Assembly: GCA_900315455.1 (NCBI GenBank)
Contig: OMZE01000009.1
Coordinates: 1 to 64,000 of the forward strand
Source of the DNA: an uncultured Prevotellaceae bacterium
GTDB taxonomy: Bacteria > Bacteroidota > Bacteroidia > Bacteroidales > Bacteroidaceae
Direction of reading: 5' to 3'
DNA length: 64,000 bases
The translations under genes were made by a program, and so were the position numbers. Shown here piece after piece: positions 1,119 through 64,000 of this stretch. The notes beneath the pieces were generated by a model. The model saw only the letters and a list, made by a program, of their open reading frames with translations, ran no database searches and was not told the origin of the DNA. Every line of letters begins with the position of its first letter. The stretch's first letter is position 1.

Positions 1119-2519
1119 ATGCAGTCAAATCGCATTCTTCTTATCTATATTCTGACAGTTCTGTCGGTGTTGGCGGCACAAGCCATGCCCGGAGTATATC
1201 ATGTGCAGGATTTCGGGGCGAAAGGAGACGGCAAGACACTCGACCATACAGCCATCAACAAGGCCATAGAGGCTGCCACGAACAACGGTGGCGGACAAGT
1301 AATACTTTCGGCGGGCACCTATCTCTGCGGCAGCATCCACTTGAAGAGCAACGTCGACCTTCACCTGATGGCAGGAGCCACCATTCTCGCCGCTCCTGCT
1401 GAACTGAAGGCATACGACGAGAGCGAGGTATTCGGTGGTCCTGAGTACCAGGATGGCGGGCACACCTATTTCCACAACAGCCTCATCTGGGCGGAGGACC
1501 AGCAAAACATCAGCATCACAGGCCATGGCATGATTGACGGAGAGGGACTGACAAGGCACGACACCGAGAACGCCGGCAACGTGCAGGGAGGCTCTATCGG
1601 CACTGGCGACAAGTCCATCGCGCTGAAACGATGCCGCAATGTGACCATACGCGACATCACCATCTACCGTGGCGGCCACTTTGCCATCATCGCCACGGGG
1701 TGCGACATCGGCACCATCGACAACGTGACTATCGACACCAACCGCGATGGTATCGACATCGACTGCTGCAAATACTTCACCGTGAGCAATACGAAGGTGA
1801 ACACACCCAACGACGACGCCATCGTACTGAAGAGTTCGTATGCCCTAAAACGTCCTGTTCTCTGCGAGCACATCCTTATCACCAACTGCATCGTGACAGG
1901 CTATAAACTCGGTACGTTTCTCGACGGCACCTATGTTCCAGAGAAAGTGAACTGGGTGTGCGGACGCATCAAACTCGGCACCGAGTCTAACGGAGGCTAC
2001 CGCAATATCACCATCTCCAACTGCTCGTGCATGTGGAGCAGCGGACTCGCTTTCGAGGAGGTGGACCAAGGACGTATGGAGAACATCGTCGTCAACAACA
2101 TCTCGCTGAGCCATGTGCACCATTATCCCATCTATATCACGACAGGCTGCCGCAACCGCGGACCGAAAGAACGCACCGAGGTCTCATCAGCCCGCGACAT
2201 TTCCATCAGCAATGTGATTGCCGACGACTGCGATTCCCTGGCAGGCATTATCGTTACAGGCATGGAAGGTGCTCCCATCCGCAACGTATCGCTATCCAAC
2301 ATCCGCATCCAATACCGGGGCGGAGGCAAGAAAGTGACCACACCGTATAGGGAGCAGGGCACCAACTATCCAGAGCCCCGCTGGGCAGGCCCCACCCCCG
2401 CCTATGGCCTGTTTGCCCGTCATGTCGACGGCCTTCGTCTGCAAAATGTAAAATTCGAACTGATGCGCCCCGACGAGCGTCCCGACATCATCATGGAGGA
2501 TGTCAGGTTGGAGGATTGA
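1119..2519 (+). CDS. Secreted GH28 polygalacturonase-family glycoside hydrolase
   Basis: A 466-residue protein with a signal peptide (residues 1-22, ending LAAQA) followed by the N-terminal beta-helix entry motif YHVQDFGAKGDGKT of pectin-active GH28 enzymes. The right-handed beta-helix carries the expected catalytic set: N-R-D-G at 208-211, the Asp pair in N-D-D-A at 231-234, and R-I-K at 283-285. The usual G-H strand is not obvious before RIK, which fits the exo-acting or rhamnogalacturonan-side-chain subgroup rather than classical endo-polygalacturonase. The role is hydrolysis of galacturonic acid linkages in pectin, in the periplasm or at the cell surface. The CDF transporter gene starts 3 nt after its stop, so the two are probably co-transcribed. 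The family is certain from motifs; the exact substrate is not. Confidence 0.9.
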   Translation: MQSNRILLIYILTVLSVLAAQAMPGVYHVQDFGAKGDGKTLDHTAINKAIEAATNNGGGQVILSAGTYLCGSIHLKSNVDLHLMAGATILAAPAELKAYDESEVFGGPEYQDGGHTYFHNSLIWAEDQQNISITGHGMIDGEGLTRHDTENAGNVQGGSIGTGDKSIALKRCRNVTIRDITIYRGGHFAIIATGCDIGTIDNVTIDTNRDGIDIDCCKYFTVSNTKVNTPNDDAIVLKSSYALKRPVLCEHILITNCIVTGYKLGTFLDGTYVPEKVNWVCGRIKLGTESNGGYRNITISNCSCMWSSGLAFEEVDQGRMENIVVNNISLSHVHHYPIYITTGCRNRGPKERTEVSSARDISISNVIADDCDSLAGIIVTGMEGAPIRNVSLSNIRIQYRGGGKKVTTPYREQGTNYPEPRWAGPTPAYGLFARHVDGLRLQNVKFELMRPDERPDIIMEDVRLED

Positions 2520-2522
2520 AAA

Positions 2523-3416
2523 ATGAATTCGAGAGAGAAAGAGATTTATAAAGTGACGTTGGTGGGCAGCGCCGGCAACATGGCATTGCTCACATTCAAG
2601 TTCATTGCCGGTATCGTAGGACACAGTTCGGCAATGATTGCCGATGCCGTACACTCCCTGTCCGACTTCATCACCGACATCATTGTCATCCTCTTCGTCA
2701 GAATCAGCGCGAAGCCTCAGGATGAGTCACACGACTACGGCCATGGCAAGTTCGAGACGATAGCCTCGTTTGTCATTGGTCTGGCACTGGTTGCCGCAGC
2801 CACCGGCATCATCTTCTCTGGAGGCATGAAACTGGCCAAATGGTTGGAGGGAGAACAATTGGAGGCACCGGGCAAACTTGCCCTCTGGGCAGCCCTCCTC
2901 TCCATCCTCGTGAAAGAAGGACTATACCATTACACCGTCAGGAAAGGCAAAACGCTTCATTCGCAGGCGGTAGAGGCCAACGCCTGGCACCACCGCAGCG
3001 ACGCCCTCTCTTCGATAGGAGCAGCCATCGGTATCGGTGGAGCCATTCTCTTAGGCAACCGCTGGACGGTGCTCGACCCTCTTGCCTCGGTCGTCGTCGG
3101 CGCCATGTTGGTGAAGGTGGCGGTTGGTTTGCTGAAGACCAGCATTGGCGAACTGACGGAATGTTCGCTTCCCGAAGACACCGAGAACGAGATAGTGCAG
3201 ATTATCCAGTCGTATCCCAACGTGTACGAGCCACATAACCTCCGCACCCGAAGGATTGGCAACAGGATAGCCATCGAGGCGCATGTGCGCATGAACGGTG
3301 ACATCACGCTGACAGAGGCGCACAACAGGGCCACCGACATCGAGCATCAACTCAAGTCAAGGTTCGGCAAGTCTACGCACGTCACTATCCACATGGAACC
3401 GACGAAAGAAAAGTGA
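2523..3416 (+). CDS. Cation diffusion facilitator (CDF) family transporter
   Basis: A 297-residue inner-membrane protein with the CDF pattern: hydrophobic segments separated by short loops, the metal-site motif DAVHSLSD (H44, D48) in the second segment and HHRSDALSS (H156/H157, D160) in the fifth, then a cytoplasmic ferredoxin-like C-terminal domain ending THVTIHMEP. CDF proteins export Zn2+, Fe2+, Mn2+ or similar divalent metals by proton antiport. Both metal-site His/Asp pairs are present, so it should be functional. The gene starts 3 nt after the GH28 stop. The link to pectin breakdown is positional only, though pectin binds divalent cations. Metal specificity cannot be read from the sequence. 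Confidence 0.9.
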   Translation: MNSREKEIYKVTLVGSAGNMALLTFKFIAGIVGHSSAMIADAVHSLSDFITDIIVILFVRISAKPQDESHDYGHGKFETIASFVIGLALVAAATGIIFSGGMKLAKWLEGEQLEAPGKLALWAALLSILVKEGLYHYTVRKGKTLHSQAVEANAWHHRSDALSSIGAAIGIGGAILLGNRWTVLDPLASVVVGAMLVKVAVGLLKTSIGELTECSLPEDTENEIVQIIQSYPNVYEPHNLRTRRIGNRIAIEAHVRMNGDITLTEAHNRATDIEHQLKSRFGKSTHVTIHMEPTKEK

Positions 3417-26377: not shown

Positions 26378-26560
26378 TTATTCTTCATCCCACAATGAGG
26401 GATGGTAGAAATTGGCATCGGCTTCGTCGTCAGCATCGCCTTCGCCTCCAATAGATTTCACGTTCTCACCGATGCTTTGATTTGACAATACAACGGGAGC
26501 CATACATTCGCTTCCCATGCATTCCTTGTAGATGTAGGGCTTTTTGTATGTTATTTTCAT
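26378..26560 (-). CDS. Small acidic protein, MKxxYxKP family (member 2)
   Basis: A 60-residue protein. The ATG at 26560 is preferred because MKITYKKPYI aligns with the other members and an unusually good AAGGAGGA lies just before it on the minus strand. Upstream in-frame codons would only add a charged extension. It has a conserved start, a short hydrophobic spot APVVLS near 21-26, an acidic middle (GGEGDADDEADAN) and the end HPSLWDEE; LWDEE is shared with the protein at 15970-16173. There is no signal peptide. It follows the BspA-like LRR gene by 13 nt, so the two are one operon. Function unknown. Confidence 0.7.
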   Translation of the reverse strand: MKITYKKPYIYKECMGSECMAPVVLSNQSIGENVKSIGGEGDADDEADANFYHPSLWDEE

Positions 26561-26573
26561 TGTATCCTCCTTG

Positions 26574-28244
26574 TCATTTGATGATGATTTTCTTTCCATT
26601 TCTCACATAGATGCCTCTTTTAGGTTGACGAACCTGCTGACCCGCCAAATTATAGAGTAGTTGGTCAGACGCCTTTGCCTCCATTTGATATGATTCGATG
26701 ACGCTGGCATCACCTGAATGCCCGACGGCCAAGTCAAAGACACTGACATTGGCACCCGAGCCTTCGCTATTTCCGTCACTGACATAGACGATACCACCAT
26801 AGGCTTTCCACCCCAATGTGGTGTTTTCGCTTGGCATATAATAGAAAAGGTTATTTTTCAAGTAGTATGCGTATGTAGGTATCTTCTGGTTGGTGTAGGT
26901 GCCTTGGTAGGTAGAAGTGTATTGCTCAGGTCCTTTCTGACCACCAGCCACGGCAAGACTCGGACTGCCATTAAATGGCGTGTAATCCACATCCTGCCCG
27001 TTGAATTCATATTCCCCTTTCGCCACGCCTGGTTTAATCAGGTAAGGTGTGTCGGCTGCCATCCCTTTTTCGTCCTCTGTGACAGGTTGGTCGAAACAGA
27101 GCGTGTTGTTATATACACCGGAATAGCCCCACACTTGGGTCCCTTCGCCGAAAACCTCATTCAACTTTCCATAGGAAACATCGAATGGCAGCATGATGGT
27201 GTACCATTTGTTGACATCCATGCTCCGTACATAGACAGTATTGATAGTGAAAGTGGTGAGAGCGCCATCGTTAACATTGGGGCTTATCACCTCAAGTTGC
27301 TGCACTCCCGTCACCTGTGGACGTTGCAGGTCTGTGGGGCGCAGGTAGATTTTCACCATACCTTTAATGAAGAACTTTTGCCAATATGGAGCATTGCTAT
27401 ATGCTTCTAAAATTTCTGTTTTGGGCTCGACATAGAGAATGCAGTGGGAGTAAAAGTCGAACTCATCAGTTCCGAAGTTCCAGTTGTATGCACTATTGTA
27501 TGCAAAAGGGTCTTCAGCGGAGCAGAAGTCACCGAGTGCTTCGGGTGGCGTAGGGTTACGTGAGTATAGGGCGAGGACAGGGCTTTTCTCGATGACATCC
27601 TCACCGACAGTTTGAAGAGTGGCAGGAAAAGTGATACTGCCCAGCGAACCACAAAATGCAAAAGCCTGTTTGCCGATACTCGTCACACCCTCGGGGATAG
27701 TGATAGAGGTGAAGCCCGTATTGTTGAAGGCCATCTCTCCGATACTTGTCAAGGCTGGACTCCATCCCACATTGTTGAGGATGGTACAGCCGTTGAAGGC
27801 TCCATTGGCAAGTGTTGTCAAGCCATTGGGCATCACCACTGATGTGATTTTAGTTCTATTGCTTACCCCCTGGAAAGAGAAAAGATCGTCAGAGATAGTG
27901 ATACCTGAAAAATCAAGTGCCAACGTTTTTGTCTCGGGCTGAGTGACTCTATTAATAATTCGTGCTATTGCCCCCCAGTCATCACTATTATAAACCGCAC
28001 CATTTACGCTTTTAAATTGGATGGAGGACACTTGATCCCATGGTAGAAGAAGGATGGTGTTCGGCCATTCTACATTAGCAGATATGGCTCCACTGGTACT
28101 GAGGCTGACTTCCGCAATACCGTCATCATTGATGGTGATGTCTAGGCCATCAAAGTGGTAGTCTGTTGCTATGGCATCGACATGAAACATCAGAAGCAGA
28201 ATGATTGCTCCTATGCTTTTCCAGATTTTTCTTTTTATCATCAT
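26574..28244 (-). CDS. Secreted BspA-like leucine-rich repeat protein
   Basis: A 556-residue protein with a signal peptide (about 1-27). A BspA/TpLRR region follows (about 125-235; SVVMPNGLTTLANGAFNGCT, LTSIGEMAFNNTGFTSITIP, EGVTSIGKQAFAFCGSLGSI). A beta-rich C-terminal half contains NKWYTIMLPFDVSYG, a motif I also see in other Prevotella-type LRR proteins and, as WNTLCLPFSL, in the beta-helix protein of this window. The conserved tail ends it (LLYNLAGQQVRQP...RGIYVRNGKKIIIK). It is probably surface-exposed and involved in binding host or matrix molecules. A perfect promoter at 28439-28469 and a conserved leader precede it. Confidence 0.85.
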   Translation of the reverse strand: MMIKRKIWKSIGAIILLLMFHVDAIATDYHFDGLDITINDDGIAEVSLSTSGAISANVEWPNTILLLPWDQVSSIQFKSVNGAVYNSDDWGAIARIINRVTQPETKTLALDFSGITISDDLFSFQGVSNRTKITSVVMPNGLTTLANGAFNGCTILNNVGWSPALTSIGEMAFNNTGFTSITIPEGVTSIGKQAFAFCGSLGSITFPATLQTVGEDVIEKSPVLALYSRNPTPPEALGDFCSAEDPFAYNSAYNWNFGTDEFDFYSHCILYVEPKTEILEAYSNAPYWQKFFIKGMVKIYLRPTDLQRPQVTGVQQLEVISPNVNDGALTTFTINTVYVRSMDVNKWYTIMLPFDVSYGKLNEVFGEGTQVWGYSGVYNNTLCFDQPVTEDEKGMAADTPYLIKPGVAKGEYEFNGQDVDYTPFNGSPSLAVAGGQKGPEQYTSTYQGTYTNQKIPTYAYYLKNNLFYYMPSENTTLGWKAYGGIVYVSDGNSEGSGANVSVFDLAVGHSGDASVIESYQMEAKASDQLLYNLAGQQVRQPKRGIYVRNGKKIIIK

Positions 28245-28319
28245 AGTTAGGCAAATTTATTTGATACAAAACCTTTTTGTGGGCTATAGTTCTCCCCAAT
28301 CTCAGAGCAGCGACCCTTT

Positions 28320-28430
28320 GTTGCCAAGGCAATAGCCATAGTCCTTCAAACCCGCAAGGCAGACAACAGACAATGTAAGCCAGAGTTCTTTCTTTGACAA
28401 CAACGTAAAGGTTTACCGTCGTTTTTTCAT
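28320..28430 (-). other. Conserved leader element, copy 2 (upstream of LRR operon)
   Basis: Minus-strand bases 28379-28320 match 55696-55755 at about 51 of 60 positions, including ACATTGTCTGTTGTCT and CCTTGCGGGT. An ATG (28430-28428) lies 8 nt after the -7 box, as in the other copy. Here the frame is MKKRR then TAA, but in-frame reading beyond the stop gives LTLSVVCLAGLKDYGY, matching copy 1. It is either a leader peptide gene with a stop, or a structured RNA leader. Confidence 0.55.
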
Positions 28431-28438
28431 GGGTGCTA

Positions 28439-28469
28439 CAAAGATACAAAAAATTTCCGTTTTGGCAAA
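28439..28469 (-). promoter_or_regulatory. Perfect promoter (TTTG-N19-TATCTTTG) of the LRR operon
   Basis: On the minus strand, TTTG (28466-28469) and TATCTTTG (28439-28446) match both consensus boxes with 19-nt spacing. Transcription should start close to the ATG at 28430, leaving a leader of about 185 nt before the LRR gene. Confidence 0.75.
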
Positions 28470-28638
28470 GTTTTTACGTTTTTTTCACTCATGCCACATA
28501 TTTGTATCTATCCATCGGTATCTGGTGGTTGATGCCTTGGTGGCCATCAGCCATCAGCAAACCCCGTATTGTAAGATTTTACGGCTTAATCCAAGATTCA
28601 TCATGAAGCATGATAAACTTTAATTTTTTATGCAATTG

Positions 28639-55329: not shown

Positions 55330-55356
55330 CAGAAAATCTCAGGAAATCAACCCTTT

Positions 55357-55391
55357 CGGTGGAATTTTTCATGTGATGGAAAATTCCACCG
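55357..55391 (+). terminator. Hairpin after the restriction operon
   Basis: Arms CGGTGGAATTTTT (55357-55369) and GAAAATTCCACCG (55379-55391) form a 12-13 bp stem 28 nt after the hsdR stop. There is no T-run directly after, but T-rich sequence follows at 55414. A second small hairpin CGTGC/GCACG is at 55450-55464. Confidence 0.55.
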
Positions 55392-55664
55392 TTGCATCGT
55401 GCCCTGTTATCGGTTTTTTAATCGCCCTGCGGTGAGAACCAACGGTCGACGTGCGAAGCGCACGCTTATTTTAGTCGCCTACGGCGAGAAATCTTTCAAA
55501 TCTTTTTTATCATTATTATTGATTTGTACCGAGTAGGTATTTCTTTTGTCTCGCATTGCAAACAGTGGCCTTTGGTTCTCTCTCATACGTCGACTAAAAA
55601 ATTGGAAACGAATGGCTTGGGAGAAAAAATCCGGAAAAAAAGATGGCTTTTCGGGAATTTTTCG

Positions 55665-55672
55665 TATATTTG
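55665..55672 (+). promoter_or_regulatory. -7 box of the small-protein/fimbrillin/giant-protein operon
   Basis: TATATTTG is a perfect -7 match and is followed 8 nt later by ATG (55681), exactly as upstream of the LRR operon. The -33 is not clear. Confidence 0.6.
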
Positions 55673-55680
55673 TCGCATCC

Positions 55681-55836
55681 ATGAAAAGACTTTGTTTTAC
55701 ATTGTCTGTTGTCTACCTTGCGGGTCTGAAGAGTTATGGTTATAGCCTTAGCAACTTACGGTGTAGGTTGCCAGAAAAACAAATGGCGATTTCACATGAT
55801 GCTCACATGACGCGGAAGTTTTTTGAATTAATATGA
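55681..55836 (+). other. Conserved leader element, copy 1, with a 51-codon leaderless ORF
   Basis: The ATG at 55681 is 8 nt past the -7 box, so the transcript would begin at or next to it. The 51-residue frame starts MKRLCFTLSVVYLAGLKSYG and ends KFFELI at 55836, 15 nt before the next gene. Bases 55696-55755 match the leader upstream of the LRR operon at about 85 percent. In that copy the frame has a stop after five codons, so the conserved entity may be RNA rather than peptide. Confidence 0.5.
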
Positions 55837-55851
55837 ATAACATATAACAAG

Positions 55852-56046
55852 ATGAAAAGAAATTACACAAAGCCCACGATAGAGGCAGTGCCCTTGGATA
55901 TGGACAGACCCCTGCTCGCAGGGAGCGACACCGACGGCGTCAGTGCGACCATTTCTGGCTACCAGTCGTCTGATAATGACAATGATTATGGTGGTAATGA
56001 CAATGATGACGGCGACGGTTTTTCACAAGATTTTTTAGAGAACTAA
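55852..56046 (+). CDS. Small acidic protein, MKxxYxKP family (member 3)
   Basis: A 64-residue protein starting MKRNYTKPTIEAVPLDMDRP, then LLAGSDTDGVS and a highly acidic Asn/Asp/Gly-rich end (DNDNDYGGNDNDDGDGFSQD). It shares the start motif and hydrophobic spot with the proteins at 15970-16173 and 26378-26560. No signal peptide is evident. It is followed 14 nt later by a fimbrillin-like lipoprotein gene and then the giant LamG protein, and preceded by the conserved leader. Function unknown; a regulator, chaperone-like or precursor-peptide role is possible. Confidence 0.72.
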   Translation: MKRNYTKPTIEAVPLDMDRPLLAGSDTDGVSATISGYQSSDNDNDYGGNDNDDGDGFSQDFLEN

Positions 56047-56060
56047 TACCTTAAAGACAT

Positions 56061-56972
56061 ATGAAGCATACTGGTTTTCTTTTACTCTTATTGTCGGCTA
56101 TGGCATTGGCAGCCTGTTCGTCTGACGATGATGGACTGGCGGAAAACAGCAACGACAGGAAACTGCGCCAACTGACTATTGCCGAAGTGCCTGTCAACAA
56201 AGACGCACCCACATCCAAGAAGGTTAGGTTCACCGACAACTCATCGTCGCTGGACGCCTCATGGACCAAGGAAGACAAGGCCACATACTTCAATGTGAGT
56301 TCATTCAGTTCTGTGACAATTGATTACGGAAGACTGACAGCAGCATCCTCTACCAGCACTTCGATGTTTCAAGGTTCGGTGAACTGTAAAACCGGCGACA
56401 GAGTGGCATTGCTTTACCCCGCCAAGGATCCGGTTCTTTCTGGTGCAGACCGAGGCAAGTTCACCATCAGCCTCGACGGACAGAAGGGCACGCTGGAAGA
56501 TATTGCAGAGCGCTTCCACTATGTCTATGGCGTGGCAGAGGTGACTTCCGTGACTGAACAAACCGCCACTGCCAAAATAGACGACATGCAGTCGCTGTTG
56601 GCAGTGTGTAAATTCTCGTTTACTGATGGCTCGGTAGCCATACCCGTAAAGACACTGACCATCAACTTCTATGATAATGAATACGCTTACCCGATGGGCT
56701 ATTCGCTGACAGCCAAGTTCATACCAACGGCAGATGCCAGTTCACTCGCTCTCGCATATGCAGGGCCAGAGACTTGGGATGATACGCCTCTTTCCGTCAG
56801 CCTCGACGAAGAGACTTCCGACGGAGTGTATGTAGCCCTTTTCCCCTATAGTCCGACAGGCTATATGCACTTTACCGTGACAGGCAGTTCCGGCACCTAC
56901 ACCGGCATGGCCAAAGCCTCTCTGAAAGCAGGCAGATACTATCCTGCCTCCCTGAAACTTACCAAGCAATAA
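56061..56972 (+). CDS. Fimbrillin-like lipoprotein
   Basis: A 303-residue lipoprotein (lipobox LAAC, Cys19, followed by SSDDD). The two-part beta-sandwich plan fits fimbrillin/Mfa-type proteins. An N-terminal strand region has KVRFTDNSSSLDASWTKEDK and TYFNVSSF, a pattern where nascent fimbrillins speak of converting values (the W-x-x-x-D motif). The C-terminal domain ends YTGMAKASLKAGRYYPASLK, typical of FimA/Mfa family ends. It is probably an outer-membrane-anchored pilus subunit or anchor. It sits directly before the giant LamG protein, which may be its surface partner. Confidence 0.75.
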   Translation: MKHTGFLLLLLSAMALAACSSDDDGLAENSNDRKLRQLTIAEVPVNKDAPTSKKVRFTDNSSSLDASWTKEDKATYFNVSSFSSVTIDYGRLTAASSTSTSMFQGSVNCKTGDRVALLYPAKDPVLSGADRGKFTISLDGQKGTLEDIAERFHYVYGVAEVTSVTEQTATAKIDDMQSLLAVCKFSFTDGSVAIPVKTLTINFYDNEYAYPMGYSLTAKFIPTADASSLALAYAGPETWDDTPLSVSLDEETSDGVYVALFPYSPTGYMHFTVTGSSGTYTGMAKASLKAGRYYPASLKLTKQ

Positions 56973-56989
56973 CATAAACCTGAAACAAT

Positions 56990-59900
56990 ATGATTAAGGC
57001 AAAACATTTCTCCCGACTGCTCATGATGGCACTCTTGCTCATCGGAGCGGCAACCGATGTGTTGGCCCAGGAATACATCACTGAAGTGATGACCCTCGGC
57101 GCAGAGCAAGGCAAGGGTGCTAATGTAAGGCGCGAATACGAAAACAAAGGATGGACCGTCGTCAATCACGACCTGAACAAGGGTGCCGGTGGATGGGATG
57201 TCTATATCGCCTACAAGACCAGCAGCACTGCCAACCCCGAGACCGGCTACATCACCGACATCTGTACAAGCAACAAGTGGGTTGACTCCTTTACCTTCGA
57301 AGGAAGAACATACTACAAGGCTCAGAGCAACAGCGGATTCAACGGAGACCTTAACCGAGGGGCCGGCGGAGAAGACATCGTCGTCTATTACACCCGCGAG
57401 CGTGGAAAACTCGATTCTTACGGGGCCGACAAACGCGTCATAACTCAGTTGTCAATATCAGACGATCCCGAGGACGGCAACTCTTGGACTGCCGCCATCT
57501 CCTGGCGCAACTCGCCATACAATGGCATCTGCGACATGAACAGAGGAGCCAGAGGTGATTTCATCTACATACAGCAGCACTTCACCACCCAGACAATGAA
57601 GTGGACTGAAAAGCCCACCTTCGCCTCGGACCTTACCTACAACGGGCAGACACAGAACCTCATCGCCAAGGACACGTGGAAGAACAACTTCGGCACGCTG
57701 AAATATCGTGTCGACGATGGGCCATGGTCGTGCGCCGTGCCCGGAGCCATCGATGTGGGCAACTACAAGGTGGAGGCACACCTTGAAGGTGTCTCAGCCA
57801 GCGGCATCGTCTTCGCCGACAACAGCGAAGTCGTCACGAAGACCGTCACCATCAACCCGCCCATCGTGAAGGCCGAAAACCTGCACGGTATGTTCAACCA
57901 GGGCGACAAACGGGTGAACCTCATGTGGGATTCGCCTTCCATTCCCAACAATTACTCCGATTTCAAGTGGGTGGTCTATCGTGACGGCACGAAGATTGCC
58001 GAACTCGCTCCCGGCGTTCACACCTACGCTGATGACGGCTACGCCAACGAGGCGTCGCCGACCTACGACGTGTACTATGTCTCGAACTTCTGGGACATAA
58101 CAACGCAGCGCGACGACACGAAGGCCACGGTGACTGTCAGCACCATCCGCGACGTGCCCGTGCGCAACCTGAAGGTGGACCAGCAGCCCGACCGCATCGT
58201 GTTTACATGGACATCGGATGCCTATCCCGAGGGCTTCGGCCACAAGTTCCGCATCTATGTAGATGACGAGGAGGACCCCATCTACACACTCACACCCGCC
58301 GACATGCAGGACTTGCTGCAATGGGAGCACCGCACCACCGACAAGCACAACAACCGACAAAACAAGGTTGACCCGGAGACGGGAGTGCCTTATACCGAGG
58401 AACCGCTCAACGCCTGCTCCCCCAAGCCCTACCGCATAGAGGGTGTCATTGGCAACACTGTGCTCAGCACCATCACCATCAACCCCAAGGCCATCGGAGA
58501 TGCTACAAAGTTCTACTCGCTCGATGCCTCGAAGGGGATCTATGAGGGGGCGGTGAAATTGTCGTGGCATGTCGACCAGCAAGGCTCTCTCTATGCCAAG
58601 ACCTACATCGTGGAGCGACGCCGTGCCGAACAACAGAACGAGGAATGGGAGGTGCTGACCCGCCTGTCGAGCAACGAAGACTACCTGTTCTATACCGACG
58701 AGACGGCGCTGCCCGGCGTCTACTACGACTACCGCATCATCGTGGAGGACAAATGCGAAGATGGCTCTATCATCAACAACGAAGTGACCAACATAGGCTT
58801 CGCCAAGAGCACGGGCACCGTGACGGGCCGCATTGCCTATGGCTCTACAGGCACGGCGGTGCAGGGTGTAGATGTGGTGATGACAATGACCAGTTCTGAG
58901 GGAGACCAGATAGAGCAGTTCCACTCCATGTATTTTACCGACGTGAACGGTGTAGTGACATGGCAATACCCTGTTGGAGGGAATCAGGATTCCCCGACCA
59001 AGAACTACGCTACAGAAAAGTTCGCCACTGGCGACTTCTCCGTGCAGATATGGCTTAACCCAGAGTCGTTTAATGAAAGTACGATTGTGGACTTCGGCAA
59101 CGGCGTCGGCTTGGGCATGACAGTTGGCGGAGGACTGACCTTCAACGGTCAGACCTTCAACGGCATCACGCTCCAGCAGAATGTCTACAATCACGTAGCA
59201 CTGACCCGCAAGGGCAAGACACTGACGTGCTATGTGCTGACGCTGAATTCGAACAGCAGCGAGCCCCAAGTGCAGCGAGCCACTCTGACGATGGCTGATG
59301 GCTCATTAGCACTGACCAATGCTGAAGAGTTCCGCCTGGGCCGTTTCAAGGGTTTGGCAGATGAGTTCCGCCTGTGGACAAGGTGCCTCAGCGAGGATGA
59401 CATCCTGGAGAACTACGAACACCTGCTGGTGGGCGACGAGAAGCAACTGGAGACCTACTGGACCTTTGACGAGGGCCTGCGCACACAGTTCTTCGACTAC
59501 TCGCGCGACGGCACCAACTACCGCAAGCACCACGGTGTCGTGGGCAGCAACACCCAACCCTCCACCCTCACGCCCACTGCACTGAGGCTGAAGGCCAAGA
59601 CCGATGCCGACGGCAACTACGTCATTCAGGGCATACCGTTCACCGGAGAGGGAACGACCTACTCGGTGGTGCCCCTCTATGGCATCCATGAGTTCAACCC
59701 CGCCAAGAAACTACTCTTTGTGGGTAAGAACGCCCTTGTCCACACCGCCGACTTCGAGGACGTTTCATCGTTCCCCATGAGCGGATATATCTACTATGCC
59801 GGCACCAACGTACCCGTAGAAGGCGTGCAGATGTATGTAGACGGCATACTGCAGAACAAGGACGGCCAGGTGTTGCAGACCGACGGTAGTGGCAGATACA

Positions 59901-62900
59901 ACATCTCCGTTCCCATTGGTCACCACTTCGTGGAAGCCAAGATGGGCGGACATACGATGGTGGCGGGCGGACGCTGGCCCACTGCAGGGACGTTCTACTT
60001 CGACCGCCCCGTGCAGTACGACTTTGCCGACTCCACACTGGTGAACTTCGTAGGTCGTGTGGGTGGCGGTCTGAGCAACGACACACTGGCCGTAGGCTTC
60101 AACTTGTCGAAGAACAACATAGGAATAGCCACCATACAACTGGCGCTGAACAATGAGTCGTTCTCACTGAACTGTCAGGACGACCACATCAGCAATGCCC
60201 TCACCGCTCGCACATGGGAGAGCGACACCACAAGCATCAACAGCCATGCCTTTACGGGCACCGACTACAATGCGAAGTACATCACCATACGCACCGACTC
60301 GCTCTCCGGCGAGTTCTCTGCCCTGCTGCCACCGCTGAAATACAAGGTGAAGAGCATAGACGTAAAAAGCGGCATAGATTTCGGTACGCTGCCAGAGATT
60401 GATTTGACAGCCGTATCGCTAGAACAAACTGACTCAATCACTGAAATCTCTGATGACGGTACTGAACTGGAGAAATCCTACACCTACAACACCAAGATGG
60501 TGAAGACCTATTTTGCCGAACCAAAATTAGAACTCATCCAAATGTCGGTCAACGGCGAAGGCGATGCGCCGAAGGGCGTGTTCGGGCACAAGGCGATTGA
60601 GGACTTCAGCGACGATTTCGGCACTACCCCCATCGACAACATCTGGACCATTGATGGCAGCGGCAAACCCACCTACACCTACGGCTATCCCATCTACGAC
60701 GTAGCCGACAAGGTGAAAATGCGCGTCTGGGGCTATGAGGTTTACGTGAACCGCGACCCCGAGCCTGCCTTACCCGCAGTGGCCGACACCATTCCACTGA
60801 ACGGACAGGTGGTGACCATCAGCAACGAGATGAGCAGCGAACAGATGGTGGTGGCTCGCGTCGATGACGAGTCGCTGGGCCTGAAGCCAGGAGACATCTA
60901 CAACCTGAAGCAAGACCAACTGATACTCGACACTCGAGGCATGAACGAGTTCACATTCTTAACCGGACTGCCCAATATCGCGGCTCCCTATACCCGTCAG
61001 TTGAGTTTGGAGATGGAGCGCAACAACCGCACCTATACTTACAGCGGTGTCAATGCCATTGTCCTCGGCTCGCTGACCACCGGCACCAACTTCGTAACTC
61101 TCGGACCCGACATCGTGACGATGGTGCTGCGCGACCCACCGGGTGCAACGTCGAAGACCACATGGACTACAGGCACAACCAAGACCAAACTGCGCTCTGA
61201 GACACAAGGCTATTTTGGCGCTGAATCCTTCAAGGCTGACCAGAGCATGGGTTCTGCGGGAAGAGTGTCGGCGGGAGCGGCGGTCTTGTTGCAGACAGTA
61301 GATTACAAACTAAGTACCGATGTTGGAGGCACATATAGTTTCGATGTGTCGTATGACAACAAAACCGAGCGGACATGGTCTACAACCGTCACACAGTCGG
61401 TCTCTACAGGCACAGGATCGTCGTTTGTGGGGTCTGCAGGCGATGTATTTATCGGTGCTTCCACCAATATCATTATAGGTAAATGCCGCAAACTGGGATT
61501 CTTCCGCAAAGGCATCGGCTACCCCTTCGAACTAGATTTGAGAGATGCCATCTCTGTAGATGACAGCATCAAGACAAGTTTTACCTATTCTACCTACGAG
61601 TTGGAGAACGTAATGATACCCAAGTGGGAGGAGACACGACGCTCGCTGTTCACCTTTGTCAAGGACGAGGCTGAGGCAAAGGCATATGTGAACACCAGCA
61701 GCCACTGCGTCTATGCCACATGGCTGAACGAGGACGATCCTGACTTAGGCAAAGATGACAACACTTATATCCAGATTATTCCGAAAGGCGCCAAAGAGAA
61801 CGAGGTATTCCCCGACAGTGTGAGGTGGTGTACTGACCAGATTGAGAGTTGGCATCAAGTGCTTGCCGACAATGAGCAAGACAAGGTGGAAGCGATAAAT
61901 AACCAGGACTACTTCAAACGTAATATCTCGTTCGACGGTGGCTCCTCTTCCTCCTACAGTGAGCGATGCGACACAACTTACCAGCGGCGCCACGACTACC
62001 AGCACAAGATGAGCATGGCAGTCAGGGTTGGTTTCACCAGCGAAGAGTCTGCAACGGCGATCTATTGGAAACTTGTCGCATCTAATGAAATCAAAAACGG
62101 CTGGCACATGGCAACGACCGAAAGCGACCCCGATGAGAACCACAAGGAATGGGCACAGTTTGACTATTCGTTCAGCGATGGCAACAAGGGCACGGATTTC
62201 AGTACCAATATCTATAAGTCGCCCCGCGGCTATAGCGACAGTTTCTACCTCGTTGGCGGGCAGAGTTACAACCCCTACGAAGGCGAGCAGAAGACTAAAT
62301 ACTACGAACCAGGAAAACATATCCTTAGCAACGGCACCGAGCAGATGGAACAGCCCAACATTCGCATCAGCCTCGACGGCAATGGCGACAACAGTGCCAA
62401 GGAGGTAACCCTGAGTGACGTGCCCGCCGGACAGGCAGGACAACTGACGCTGCACCTCACCAACCTGAACAACACCAACCAGGACTTCGACTTCAGTTAC
62501 GACCTCATCGTGCAGGAGAAAGCCAACCAGATGGGACTGGAAATCCTGATGGACGGTTTTCCTGCCAATGGGCGTCCCATACTCATCCCTGCGGGCGAGA
62601 CTGTGAAGAAGGTCATCACCGTCAGACAGACCGACCAGAGCGTGCTCGACTATGAGGACCTGGAACTGTACTTCTGTTCGCAGTACCAGCCCACCAAGAT
62701 TCACGACATGGCGAAATTCAACGTACACTTCACGCCCTCGTCATCGCCCATCAACCTCGCCATCACTGACCCGGTGCTCAACATCGAGACGCTCGACCGC
62801 AACAAGGGCGACCTGGAACTGAAAGTCACTGGTTTCGACCGCCAGTTCAAGGGTATGAAGAAACTGGGCGTGGAATACCGCTTCGAGGGTTCCACCACCT

Positions 62901-64000
62901 GGACGAGACCCGACACGCTGACCTTCCTCGTCAACCGCGCCGACTCCACAAAGTTGCACGACCAGGTGCTGCCCTCTACGGGCGACCTGCTCCTGCGTTT
63001 CAACATGAAGGACGACAACCTCTACCCACAAGGCAACTACACCTTCCGTGCCTACACCACCACGGCGTATGGCACCGGCGACATCAGCGTGTACAGCAGT
63101 GAGGTGACCGTGGTGAAGGACAACGTGCGACCACGCAACCTCACCACTCCAGCACCCACCGACGGCATCCTGCGCTATGGCGACGACATCATCGTGGAGT
63201 TCAACGAGGACATCGTGCCCGGCTATGTCTCTGATAAGAACATCATCGTCACCGCCAAGTTGAACAACCAGCCTATCCAACACGATGTGGCACTGGAACT
63301 TATCCCCTACGGTACCACTGCTCATACGAATAATCCTGTATTCCTCAACGGCGACTTCTCCATCGAATTCTGGTTGAAGTGGACTCAGGGAGGCCACCTC
63401 CTCCGATGGGGAAAGGGGCTCAACATTACGTCAATGAGTATTGACAACAGCGGGCACTTTACAATTTGGATCGGCGGAAATTCTTACATCAGCACATCAG
63501 TTCTTCCAAAGGATACTTGGACGTACGTCGTTGCCAGTTACAAGGCCGACGACATGACCTTCTCGGCACTCGGGCAGTATGGCACAGAGTCGGTAATGCT
63601 CTTCGACAAGCAGCCTGTCACATTCTCGGCTTTGGAATCCATCAACTATTCCGACGACAACATCTTCTACCTTGGCGGTGGTATCACGGCAGCCATCCAC
63701 GACATGGCCCTTTACGACATCTTCCGCGATGTCTACGAGGCTGGGGCGACAAAGTATATCTCGAAAGACCAATACACCTATGGACTTACCAACTATTGGC
63801 CCATGAACGAAGGACACGGTTCGGTAGCTGCCGACTCGCGCCACACTCACGACTTCGAAGTGAACGACCGGTGGCAACTCTCCAACGTAAACTACAGCCT
63901 TGACACATCTTCGTTAGGTGAACTGACAGCCGACATCTCCCGTATCAACACGTCGGTGAGCGACAGTTACGCCATCGAACTTTGGGCAAGTATTCACAAT
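56990..64000 (+). CDS. Giant secreted protein with MABP-like beta-prism, Fn3-like and LamG domains (partial)
   Basis: The frame is open for 2337 codons from the ATG at 56990 to the window edge. A signal peptide (1-26) is followed by three related repeats with D-L/M-N-x-G-A-x-G-x-x-I/V-Y-I (DLNKGAGGWDVYIAY at 61-75, DLNRGAGGEDIVVYY at 120-134, DMNRGARGDFIYIQ at 182-195). This is the signature of a threefold MABP-type beta-prism. Fn3/Ig-like units occupy about 200-600. A LamG/concanavalin-like domain lies at about 670-830 (GDFSVQIWLNPESF...LADEFRLWTRCLS), with a second at about 2105-2300 (GDFSIEFWLKW) and a third starting at 2320. Carboxypeptidase-regulatory-like segments occur around 840-960. 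A Thr/Ser-rich amphipathic stretch (about 1370-1510) is unexplained. Probably a very large surface adhesin. Confidence 0.85.
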   Translation, partial: MIKAKHFSRLLMMALLLIGAATDVLAQEYITEVMTLGAEQGKGANVRREYENKGWTVVNHDLNKGAGGWDVYIAYKTSSTANPETGYITDICTSNKWVDSFTFEGRTYYKAQSNSGFNGDLNRGAGGEDIVVYYTRERGKLDSYGADKRVITQLSISDDPEDGNSWTAAISWRNSPYNGICDMNRGARGDFIYIQQHFTTQTMKWTEKPTFASDLTYNGQTQNLIAKDTWKNNFGTLKYRVDDGPWSCAVPGAIDVGNYKVEAHLEGVSASGIVFADNSEVVTKTVTINPPIVKAENLHGMFNQGDKRVNLMWDSPSIPNNYSDFKWVVYRDGTKIAELAPGVHTYADDGYANEASPTYDVYYVSNFWDITTQRDDTKATVTVSTIRDVPVRNLKVDQQPDRIVFTWTSDAYPEGFGHKFRIYVDDEEDPIYTLTPADMQDLLQWEHRTTDKHNNRQNKVDPETGVPYTEEPLNACSPKPYRIEGVIGNTVLSTITINPKAIGDATKFYSLDASKGIYEGAVKLSWHVDQQGSLYAKTYIVERRRAEQQNEEWEVLTRLSSNEDYLFYTDETALPGVYYDYRIIVEDKCEDGSIINNEVTNIGFAKSTGTVTGRIAYGSTGTAVQGVDVVMTMTSSEGDQIEQFHSMYFTDVNGVVTWQYPVGGNQDSPTKNYATEKFATGDFSVQIWLNPESFNESTIVDFGNGVGLGMTVGGGLTFNGQTFNGITLQQNVYNHVALTRKGKTLTCYVLTLNSNSSEPQVQRATLTMADGSLALTNAEEFRLGRFKGLADEFRLWTRCLSEDDILENYEHLLVGDEKQLETYWTFDEGLRTQFFDYSRDGTNYRKHHGVVGSNTQPSTLTPTALRLKAKTDADGNYVIQGIPFTGEGTTYSVVPLYGIHEFNPAKKLLFVGKNALVHTADFEDVSSFPMSGYIYYAGTNVPVEGVQMYVDGILQNKDGQVLQTDGSGRYNISVPIGHHFVEAKMGGHTMVAGGRWPTAGTFYFDRPVQYDFADSTLVNFVGRVGGGLSNDTLAVGFNLSKNNIGIATIQLALNNESFSLNCQDDHISNALTARTWESDTTSINSHAFTGTDYNAKYITIRTDSLSGEFSALLPPLKYKVKSIDVKSGIDFGTLPEIDLTAVSLEQTDSITEISDDGTELEKSYTYNTKMVKTYFAEPKLELIQMSVNGEGDAPKGVFGHKAIEDFSDDFGTTPIDNIWTIDGSGKPTYTYGYPIYDVADKVKMRVWGYEVYVNRDPEPALPAVADTIPLNGQVVTISNEMSSEQMVVARVDDESLGLKPGDIYNLKQDQLILDTRGMNEFTFLTGLPNIAAPYTRQLSLEMERNNRTYTYSGVNAIVLGSLTTGTNFVTLGPDIVTMVLRDPPGATSKTTWTTGTTKTKLRSETQGYFGAESFKADQSMGSAGRVSAGAAVLLQTVDYKLSTDVGGTYSFDVSYDNKTERTWSTTVTQSVSTGTGSSFVGSAGDVFIGASTNIIIGKCRKLGFFRKGIGYPFELDLRDAISVDDSIKTSFTYSTYELENVMIPKWEETRRSLFTFVKDEAEAKAYVNTSSHCVYATWLNEDDPDLGKDDNTYIQIIPKGAKENEVFPDSVRWCTDQIESWHQVLADNEQDKVEAINNQDYFKRNISFDGGSSSSYSERCDTTYQRRHDYQHKMSMAVRVGFTSEESATAIYWKLVASNEIKNGWHMATTESDPDENHKEWAQFDYSFSDGNKGTDFSTNIYKSPRGYSDSFYLVGGQSYNPYEGEQKTKYYEPGKHILSNGTEQMEQPNIRISLDGNGDNSAKEVTLSDVPAGQAGQLTLHLTNLNNTNQDFDFSYDLIVQEKANQMGLEILMDGFPANGRPILIPAGETVKKVITVRQTDQSVLDYEDLELYFCSQYQPTKIHDMAKFNVHFTPSSSPINLAITDPVLNIETLDRNKGDLELKVTGFDRQFKGMKKLGVEYRFEGSTTWTRPDTLTFLVNRADSTKLHDQVLPSTGDLLLRFNMKDDNLYPQGNYTFRAYTTTAYGTGDISVYSSEVTVVKDNVRPRNLTTPAPTDGILRYGDDIIVEFNEDIVPGYVSDKNIIVTAKLNNQPIQHDVALELIPYGTTAHTNNPVFLNGDFSIEFWLKWTQGGHLLRWGKGLNITSMSIDNSGHFTIWIGGNSYISTSVLPKDTWTYVVASYKADDMTFSALGQYGTESVMLFDKQPVTFSALESINYSDDNIFYLGGGITAAIHDMALYDIFRDVYEAGATKYISKDQYTYGLTNYWPMNEGHGSVAADSRHTHDFEVNDRWQLSNVNYSLDTSSLGELTADISRINTSVSDSYAIELWASIHN

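Follow-up and report, generated by a model that had tools for sequence, protein, structure and literature searches.

Relic right ends of an IS3-family insertion sequence as probable promoters of two surface-protein operons in a Prevotellaceae genome

Two copies of one unit in the window

Analyses of a 64,000-nucleotide stretch of DNA from an uncultured Prevotellaceae bacterium (the whole stretch being referred to here as the window) indicated, with high confidence, that the promoter-leader unit shared by two of its operons is the right, non-coding end of an IS3-family insertion sequence (IS). The alignments established the IS origin of the unit, the loss of the IS body, the retention of the -7 box and a position directly upstream of genes. 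The explanation we favour, with a probability of about 0.88, is that the unit is such a right end and that relic ends have been kept as promoter and 5′UTR for neighbouring genes, which often encode secreted proteins. According to this explanation the IS would carry a complete outward Bacteroidota promoter between the stop codon of OrfB and the right inverted repeat, and about 110–200 nt of end sequence would be transcribed after that promoter. Insertion ahead of a gene would add a promoter and a 5′UTR; the transposase body would then be lost and the right end alone kept. Within the window this would have happened twice, before an LRR gene at 28 kb and before an operon for a small protein, a lipoprotein and a surface protein at 55 kb.

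The first-pass annotation of this DNA had started from the 55-kb copy; its observation was confirmed, and its reading of the unit was partly supported. As it had noted, a -7 box (TATATTTG, 55665–55672, + strand), here assigned by sequence to the outward IS promoter, is followed after an 8-nt spacer (TCGCATCC) by an ATG at 55681, which begins a frame of 51 codons and a stop that ends at 55836, 15 nt 5′ of the ATG of a small-protein gene at 55852. We judged this frame (55681–55836, +) to be a chance one. The frame is already open upstream, within an ORF of 96 aa from a TTG (55546–55836), and the ATG therefore sets no limit to it; since 435 ORFs of 45 aa or more are present in the ORF list of the window, a frame of 51 codons is no rarity. 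The 60-nt block at 55696–55755 (+), described previously as resembling the leader of the LRR operon, has 86% identity (E 8e-14) to 28320–28378 on the - strand and is part of the IS right end. A genome-wide search for the block had been suggested and, when run, was negative for the remainder of the 4.76-Mb assembly, where these were its two places only (whole-assembly search), and positive for the genus, more genomes of which had matches.

Alignments to related loci (L021, L015/L022) placed the 55-kb relic at 55614–55762 (+), extending from about the OrfB stop into the leader, with the right terminus lost; the DNA match of this relic with the IS of locus L016 covers 55679–55762. The first gene after the relic promoter encodes a small protein of 64 aa (MKRNYTKPTIEAVPLDMDRPLLAGS..., 55852–56046, +) that has homologues in L094 and L095 and for which a Pfam search found nothing at E ≤ 1e-3. 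It is followed by genes for a putative lipoprotein of 303 aa (56061–56972, +), with no Pfam match and with homologues of 39–44% identity in the same two loci, and for a very large predicted surface protein (56990–63997, +; Laminin_G_3, PF13385, E 8.4e-18), which is stop-free to the window end. Homologues of this operon in contigs G237:C49 and G139:C17 comprise the small protein and the lipoprotein, and the L094 homologue operon also has the large surface protein (~71% identity). The unit at the 55-kb operon is most likely a later addition rather than an ancestral part, since the homologous operons have different sequence upstream, with TANNTTTG boxes of their own. A sequence-only model built from six copies of the unit (R1) found nothing at the two homologues up to E 10, in a search that was not exhaustive because R1 also misses the related locus L046.

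The relic at 28 kb (28285–28544, -) comprises the OrfB tail, promoter, leader and right terminus, and is 75% identical to the L016 IS (E 9.9e-61). The last 17 codons of OrfB were recognized at 28492–28542 (-; tblastn, 76% over 17 residues, E 8e-4), a -7 box (TATCTTTG) is located at 28439–28446 (-) with TTTG 19 nt upstream, and the right terminal repeat (...ATTGGGGAGAACTATA), which has one mismatch to the pattern, is at 28285–28300 (-). A search for the terminus pattern with three mismatches allowed also matched 32 of 100 shuffles, and the assignment of this repeat therefore relies mainly on the multiple alignment; the exact terminus, GGGGAGTACTATA, is absent from the window's genome. The ATG of the BspA-type LRR surface protein (26574–28244, -; PF13306, E 6.1e-22) is 40 nt past the IS end. 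The small protein of this operon is encoded 3′ of the surface gene, that of the 55-kb operon 5′ of it. The small proteins of both operons (55852–56046, + and 26378–26599, -) were observed to be acidic and to start with M-K-x-x-Y-x-K-P, which at 26378–26599 starts from an ATG inside the listed ORF. In L094 and L095 the small-protein relatives are followed by lipoprotein genes, one with LLAGS.

The parent insertion sequence and its relatives

All-against-all alignment showed that about 1.4 kb 5′ of the block is common to some of the loci and that homology ends sharply at ...GGGGAGTACTATA; between unrelated loci it ends at, or few bases from, this sequence. Intact IS copies were identified in related genomes (L016 and L021), each with OrfA, OrfB and terminal repeats, and with the promoter and leader 3′ of the OrfB stop. 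The L016 copy is 1438 bp in length (171–1608), and a full-length copy in G364 is 90% identical to it. L016 OrfB matched NF033516 (IS3 family transposase, NCBIfam) with 227.7 bits against a cut-off of 160 (E 2.6e-67), and the Pfam domains of OrfB include rve, rve_3 and HTH_21. The open frames in L016, of 108 and 292 codons, overlap in different frames (OrfA/OrfB, with putative frameshifting). Terminal inverted repeats (TATARTACTCCC...ACCAGTG) are present at both IS ends, the left end, TATAATACTCCC...GACCAGTG, being mirrored by the right end, TATAGTACTCCC...GACCAGTG. In L016 the distance from the OrfB stop to the right terminus is 246 nt, and the block is inside this region. No target-site duplication was recognized by eye at L016, L021 or L045. 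A possible third IS gene, a frame in L021 overlapping the stop codon of OrfB (ATGA), was rejected by eye because its L016 counterpart terminates in a different frame of the block.

The first-pass annotation was thus right in describing a promoter-leader unit common to two operons, and the two copies have the same origin in the IS3 right end. The common control mechanism to which it had pointed was not upheld as such: as the unit is an IS3 right end, what the two operons have in common is a mobile promoter and no dedicated regulon leader. In the transposition circle the promoter would, by comparison with other IS3 junction promoters, read over the right-left junction into orfA.

At E ≤ 1e-3, R1 had matches in 17 of the 398 genomes sampled from the genus, with those in G257 and G379 and the second place of G120 taken as likely chance. 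In a family-wide sample 2 of 399 genomes were matched, namely the window's own and one of another genus with a 46-base fragment. The exact core pattern was found in seven genome contigs, of which five have Prevotella and two have Prevotellaceae in the title, and in no viral contigs; source names on three of the seven contigs were water-buffalo rumen, omasum or abomasum. The count for the genus indicates that the recurrence of the block exceeds chance. The IS is found in Prevotella, and several of the host genomes are from ruminant stomachs.

A search of the window's own genome with OrfB returned no transposase at E ≤ 1e-3, an empty answer that alone is no proof, and a search with the whole IS returned the two relics and, besides them, only a promoter-like match of 38 bases. 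Because of the absence of a transposase match in this genome, the donor was deduced from the relatives. OrfB tails were detected 5′ of the block (E ≤ 1e-3) in the 28-kb copy, L032 (the same place as L042), L022 (the same place as L044), L040 and L023.

The leader of L045, whose OrfB is 53% identical, is unlike that of the other copies, yet TTTG-19-TATATTTG is present between its OrfB stop and right terminus. L046 (74% over the matched part of OrfB) has TACCTTTG and pieces of the block, and was not reached by R1 even at E 10. L050 and L048, which are distant relatives, have less sequence after OrfB (62 and 113 nt, respectively), and no such promoter was seen in these two by eye. The promoter-bearing right end thus belongs to part of this IS3 group.

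Retention of right ends and alternative explanations

The promoter consensus of B. fragilis is TTTG / TANNTTTG (PMC9330008), and of 21 loci scanned 15 had the octamer TANNTTTG at the equivalent place. Both window copies have it, with an exact TTTG absent at the expected place in the 55-kb copy. In all five LRR orthologues (L018, which is the window's 28-kb copy, L017, L027, L032 and L034) the octamer is intact despite diverging flanks, having changes at its NN positions only. We consider, with moderate to high confidence, that the relic ends function as promoters; we infer promoter activity, the driving of both operons, and selection for expression as the reason for retention.

The octamer conservation argues against the ends being neutral relics, that is, chance survivors of decayed IS copies beside operons that use other promoters. 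IS decay is common, and such an origin would be consistent with the loss of the -7 octamer in 6 of the 21 loci (L019, L024, L026, L029, L035 and L037) and with four right ends (L016, L022, L025 and L026) that have no co-directional ORF of at least 60 aa within 150 nt. For the 23 right-end loci, whose ends were set by hand from alignments (L030, L031 and L036 being omitted as likely chance), a co-directional ORF of at least 100 aa was present within 150 nt in 14, or in 10 of 19 when the LRR orthologues were taken once. The control, taken from both strands of the window and seven contigs with crude ORF calls rather than annotated genes, gave such an ORF at 997 of 4932 intergenic positions (20%) and, over all kinds of position, at 3371 of 31366 (11%). 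When ORFs down to 60 aa were counted, the comparison was 19 of 23 right ends versus 34% of intergenic positions; the 55-kb unit is counted at this limit only, because its first gene is short. Twelve of the 14 downstream ORFs begin 27–59 nt past the end; this excess of close downstream ORFs likewise speaks against neutral relics. Secreted-like N-termini were recognized by eye downstream of the LRR, L015, L020, L021, L024 and L028 ends.

The two IS ends were also compared, using queries of 215 bases from each in the same 329 genomes and the best two candidates per genome. At E < 1e-7, with same-place rows merged and weaker rows, mostly of 20–60 nt, omitted as likely chance, the right end was found in 16 genomes (at least 20 distinct places) and the left end in 4 (at least 6 places). 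Four of the right places are short of the terminus (G080, G079:C51, G157 and one of G163) and five are LRR orthologues. The genome tally is fairer than the place counts because a search with the whole IS identified at least three further left ends, in G079 (C51 and C30) and G163 (818865). More genomes with right than left ends at E < 1e-7 would speak against neutral survival, but the tallies reverse at the looser E ≤ 1e-3 (24 genomes right, 65 left), owing mostly to a common promoter motif at about positions 43–67 of the left query that gives short matches, and differing evolutionary rates of the two queries may partly contribute to the excess. Overall, we regard neutral survival as unlikely.

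A different function for the leader would be that of a cis-regulatory RNA (an attenuator or riboswitch) for surface-protein operons, which hitchhikes with the IS. Conservation among the LRR orthologues is 87% for the block and 92% for the terminal ~35 nt, above the 78% of the OrfB relic and the 74% of the post-IS UTR, and because of this the transcribed end might, with low confidence, serve some function beyond that of a promoter. However, much of the block is deleted in two of these five orthologues (L027 and L034), in which the multiple alignment showed the -7 box to be retained, and the leader is present in intact IS copies. Pairing of the TGTTGT/GCAACA inverted repeat holds in 96.6% of cells, but the helix is nearly invariant, and a transposase-binding repeat could be an equally good interpretation of it. 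A hand-drawn structure of ten pairs had 90.6% of cells paired; of 500 shuffles (mean 88.6) 18 did as well, but none of the six slid versions did. The same structure had only one doubly changed cell, and as much was reached by 171 of 500 shuffles. RNAalifold identified no compensated pair in 15 sequences, and the folding z-scores of five leaders were -1.02, 0.01, 0.74, -0.03 and 1.59. Rfam searches had nothing near gathering score on the unit: the five matches in 55350–56060 up to E 5 were all far under their gathering scores, and a search of five related loci up to E 1 matched a tRNA in L004, its other matches being sub-threshold and all of them outside the unit. The structured RNA contemplated for the leader by the first-pass annotation thus drew no support from folding, covariation or Rfam, and we consider a regulatory RNA very unlikely.

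That annotation had also viewed the 51-codon ORF as leaderless and placed it in a conserved leader, and such an ORF might encode a regulatory upstream peptide. The position of the ATG 8 nt after the -7 box suits this idea, as does a block frame that is open, with similar residues, in 10 of 15 aligned loci. The frame has stops in the other five, however, the ATG corresponds to AAG in the intact L016 and L021 copies, and at 28 kb the ATG after the -7 box reaches a stop at codon 6. The pN/pS in the frame (11 of the 15 rows, L024, L026, L028 and L029 being omitted) was 0.72, a value inside the range of 300 column shuffles (0.88, sd 0.22) and not below those of the two remaining forward frames (0.66 and 0.60). 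As the ATG is not kept, the frame is broken in five of the 15 loci and coding constraint drew no support, a true leader peptide is scarcely credible. Frame comparison gave no support to a protein encoded on the opposite strand.

Our preferred reading, retention of IS3 right ends as promoter and 5′UTR, could be extended to an IS3 lineage that is a portable promoter-plus-5′UTR cassette, repeatedly captured ahead of secreted and surface-protein genes, so that genes of separate descent form an IS-derived regulon, with a transcribed right terminus that is functional, beyond the promoter, in the mRNA or the circle. We view this extension as speculative and unlikely.

Relation to known mobile promoters and further observations

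Mobile, outward IS promoters are already well known. A 2022 genomic study that discusses mobile promoters cites a review that counts 40 IS with a complete outward promoter (PMC9208149). IS614 insertions accompany raised neighbouring transcription in B. caccae (PMC7260799), and this element resembles the one described here in being a Bacteroidales IS with an outward promoter. The IS614 promoter is near the 5′ end and antisense to the transposase, whereas that of the present, IS3-family, element is 3′ of OrfB and in the sense orientation, and the IS614 work concerned recent insertions whereas those described here are mostly relic ends (PMC7260799). In B. fragilis, cfiA has mobile promoters, IS1186 among them, that are likewise IS-borne and upstream of a Bacteroides gene (cited in PMC9330008); they serve a resistance gene, whereas the ends in the window are old, truncated and located before surface-protein genes. 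Within the IS3 family, IS911 and IS2 have an outward promoter element in the right end that serves the transposase in the circle (PMC9330008). According to the same source, IS911 has the -35 motif alone in its right repeat and the promoter is made at the junction, whereas here a complete promoter and a long end sequence are inside the right end. No description of this Prevotella IS3 unit was found in the open-licence literature, as judged by titles and the starts of abstracts.

The case is ordinary in kind, and its history is specific and rather clean: the right end of an IS3 element was kept twice in the window as a probable mobile promoter. It would explain a promoter-leader shared by unrelated surface operons of one genome without a new regulator, and it adds an example in which transposon ends were captured repeatedly, as likely promoters, ahead of genes for secreted proteins in Prevotella. 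It is also a warning that an IS end can lie behind "conserved leaders" common to a few operons. Should the promoters be active, they would provide a testable evolutionary route for the switching on of surface-protein repertoires.

Several further features of the related loci were observed. G163:C1 has three near-identical IS copies (98.6–99.7%) near 729, 800 and 820 kb (L035, L029 and L037), which keep long stretches of the transposase, lack the -7 octamer and have a leader centre unlike that of other copies; L035 and L037 have breaks at N positions, which may be assembly gaps. In L015, L016, L019, L021 and L029 a strong hairpin (GGGGCATCGAGCCCC) with its flanks is present between two AAGAAA-like leader repeats, and other copies are without it; the pattern suggests either a small nested insertion or repeat-mediated loss. 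A tRNA-Ser gene (L044 7747–7832, -) is just 3′ of a sister relic of the 55-kb unit. In L023 the region 3′ of the IS right end (1743–3101) has, as recognized by eye, a gene for a Cys-rich peptide of 60 aa followed by one for a radical-SAM-like cysteine protein, and may represent a peptide modification locus.
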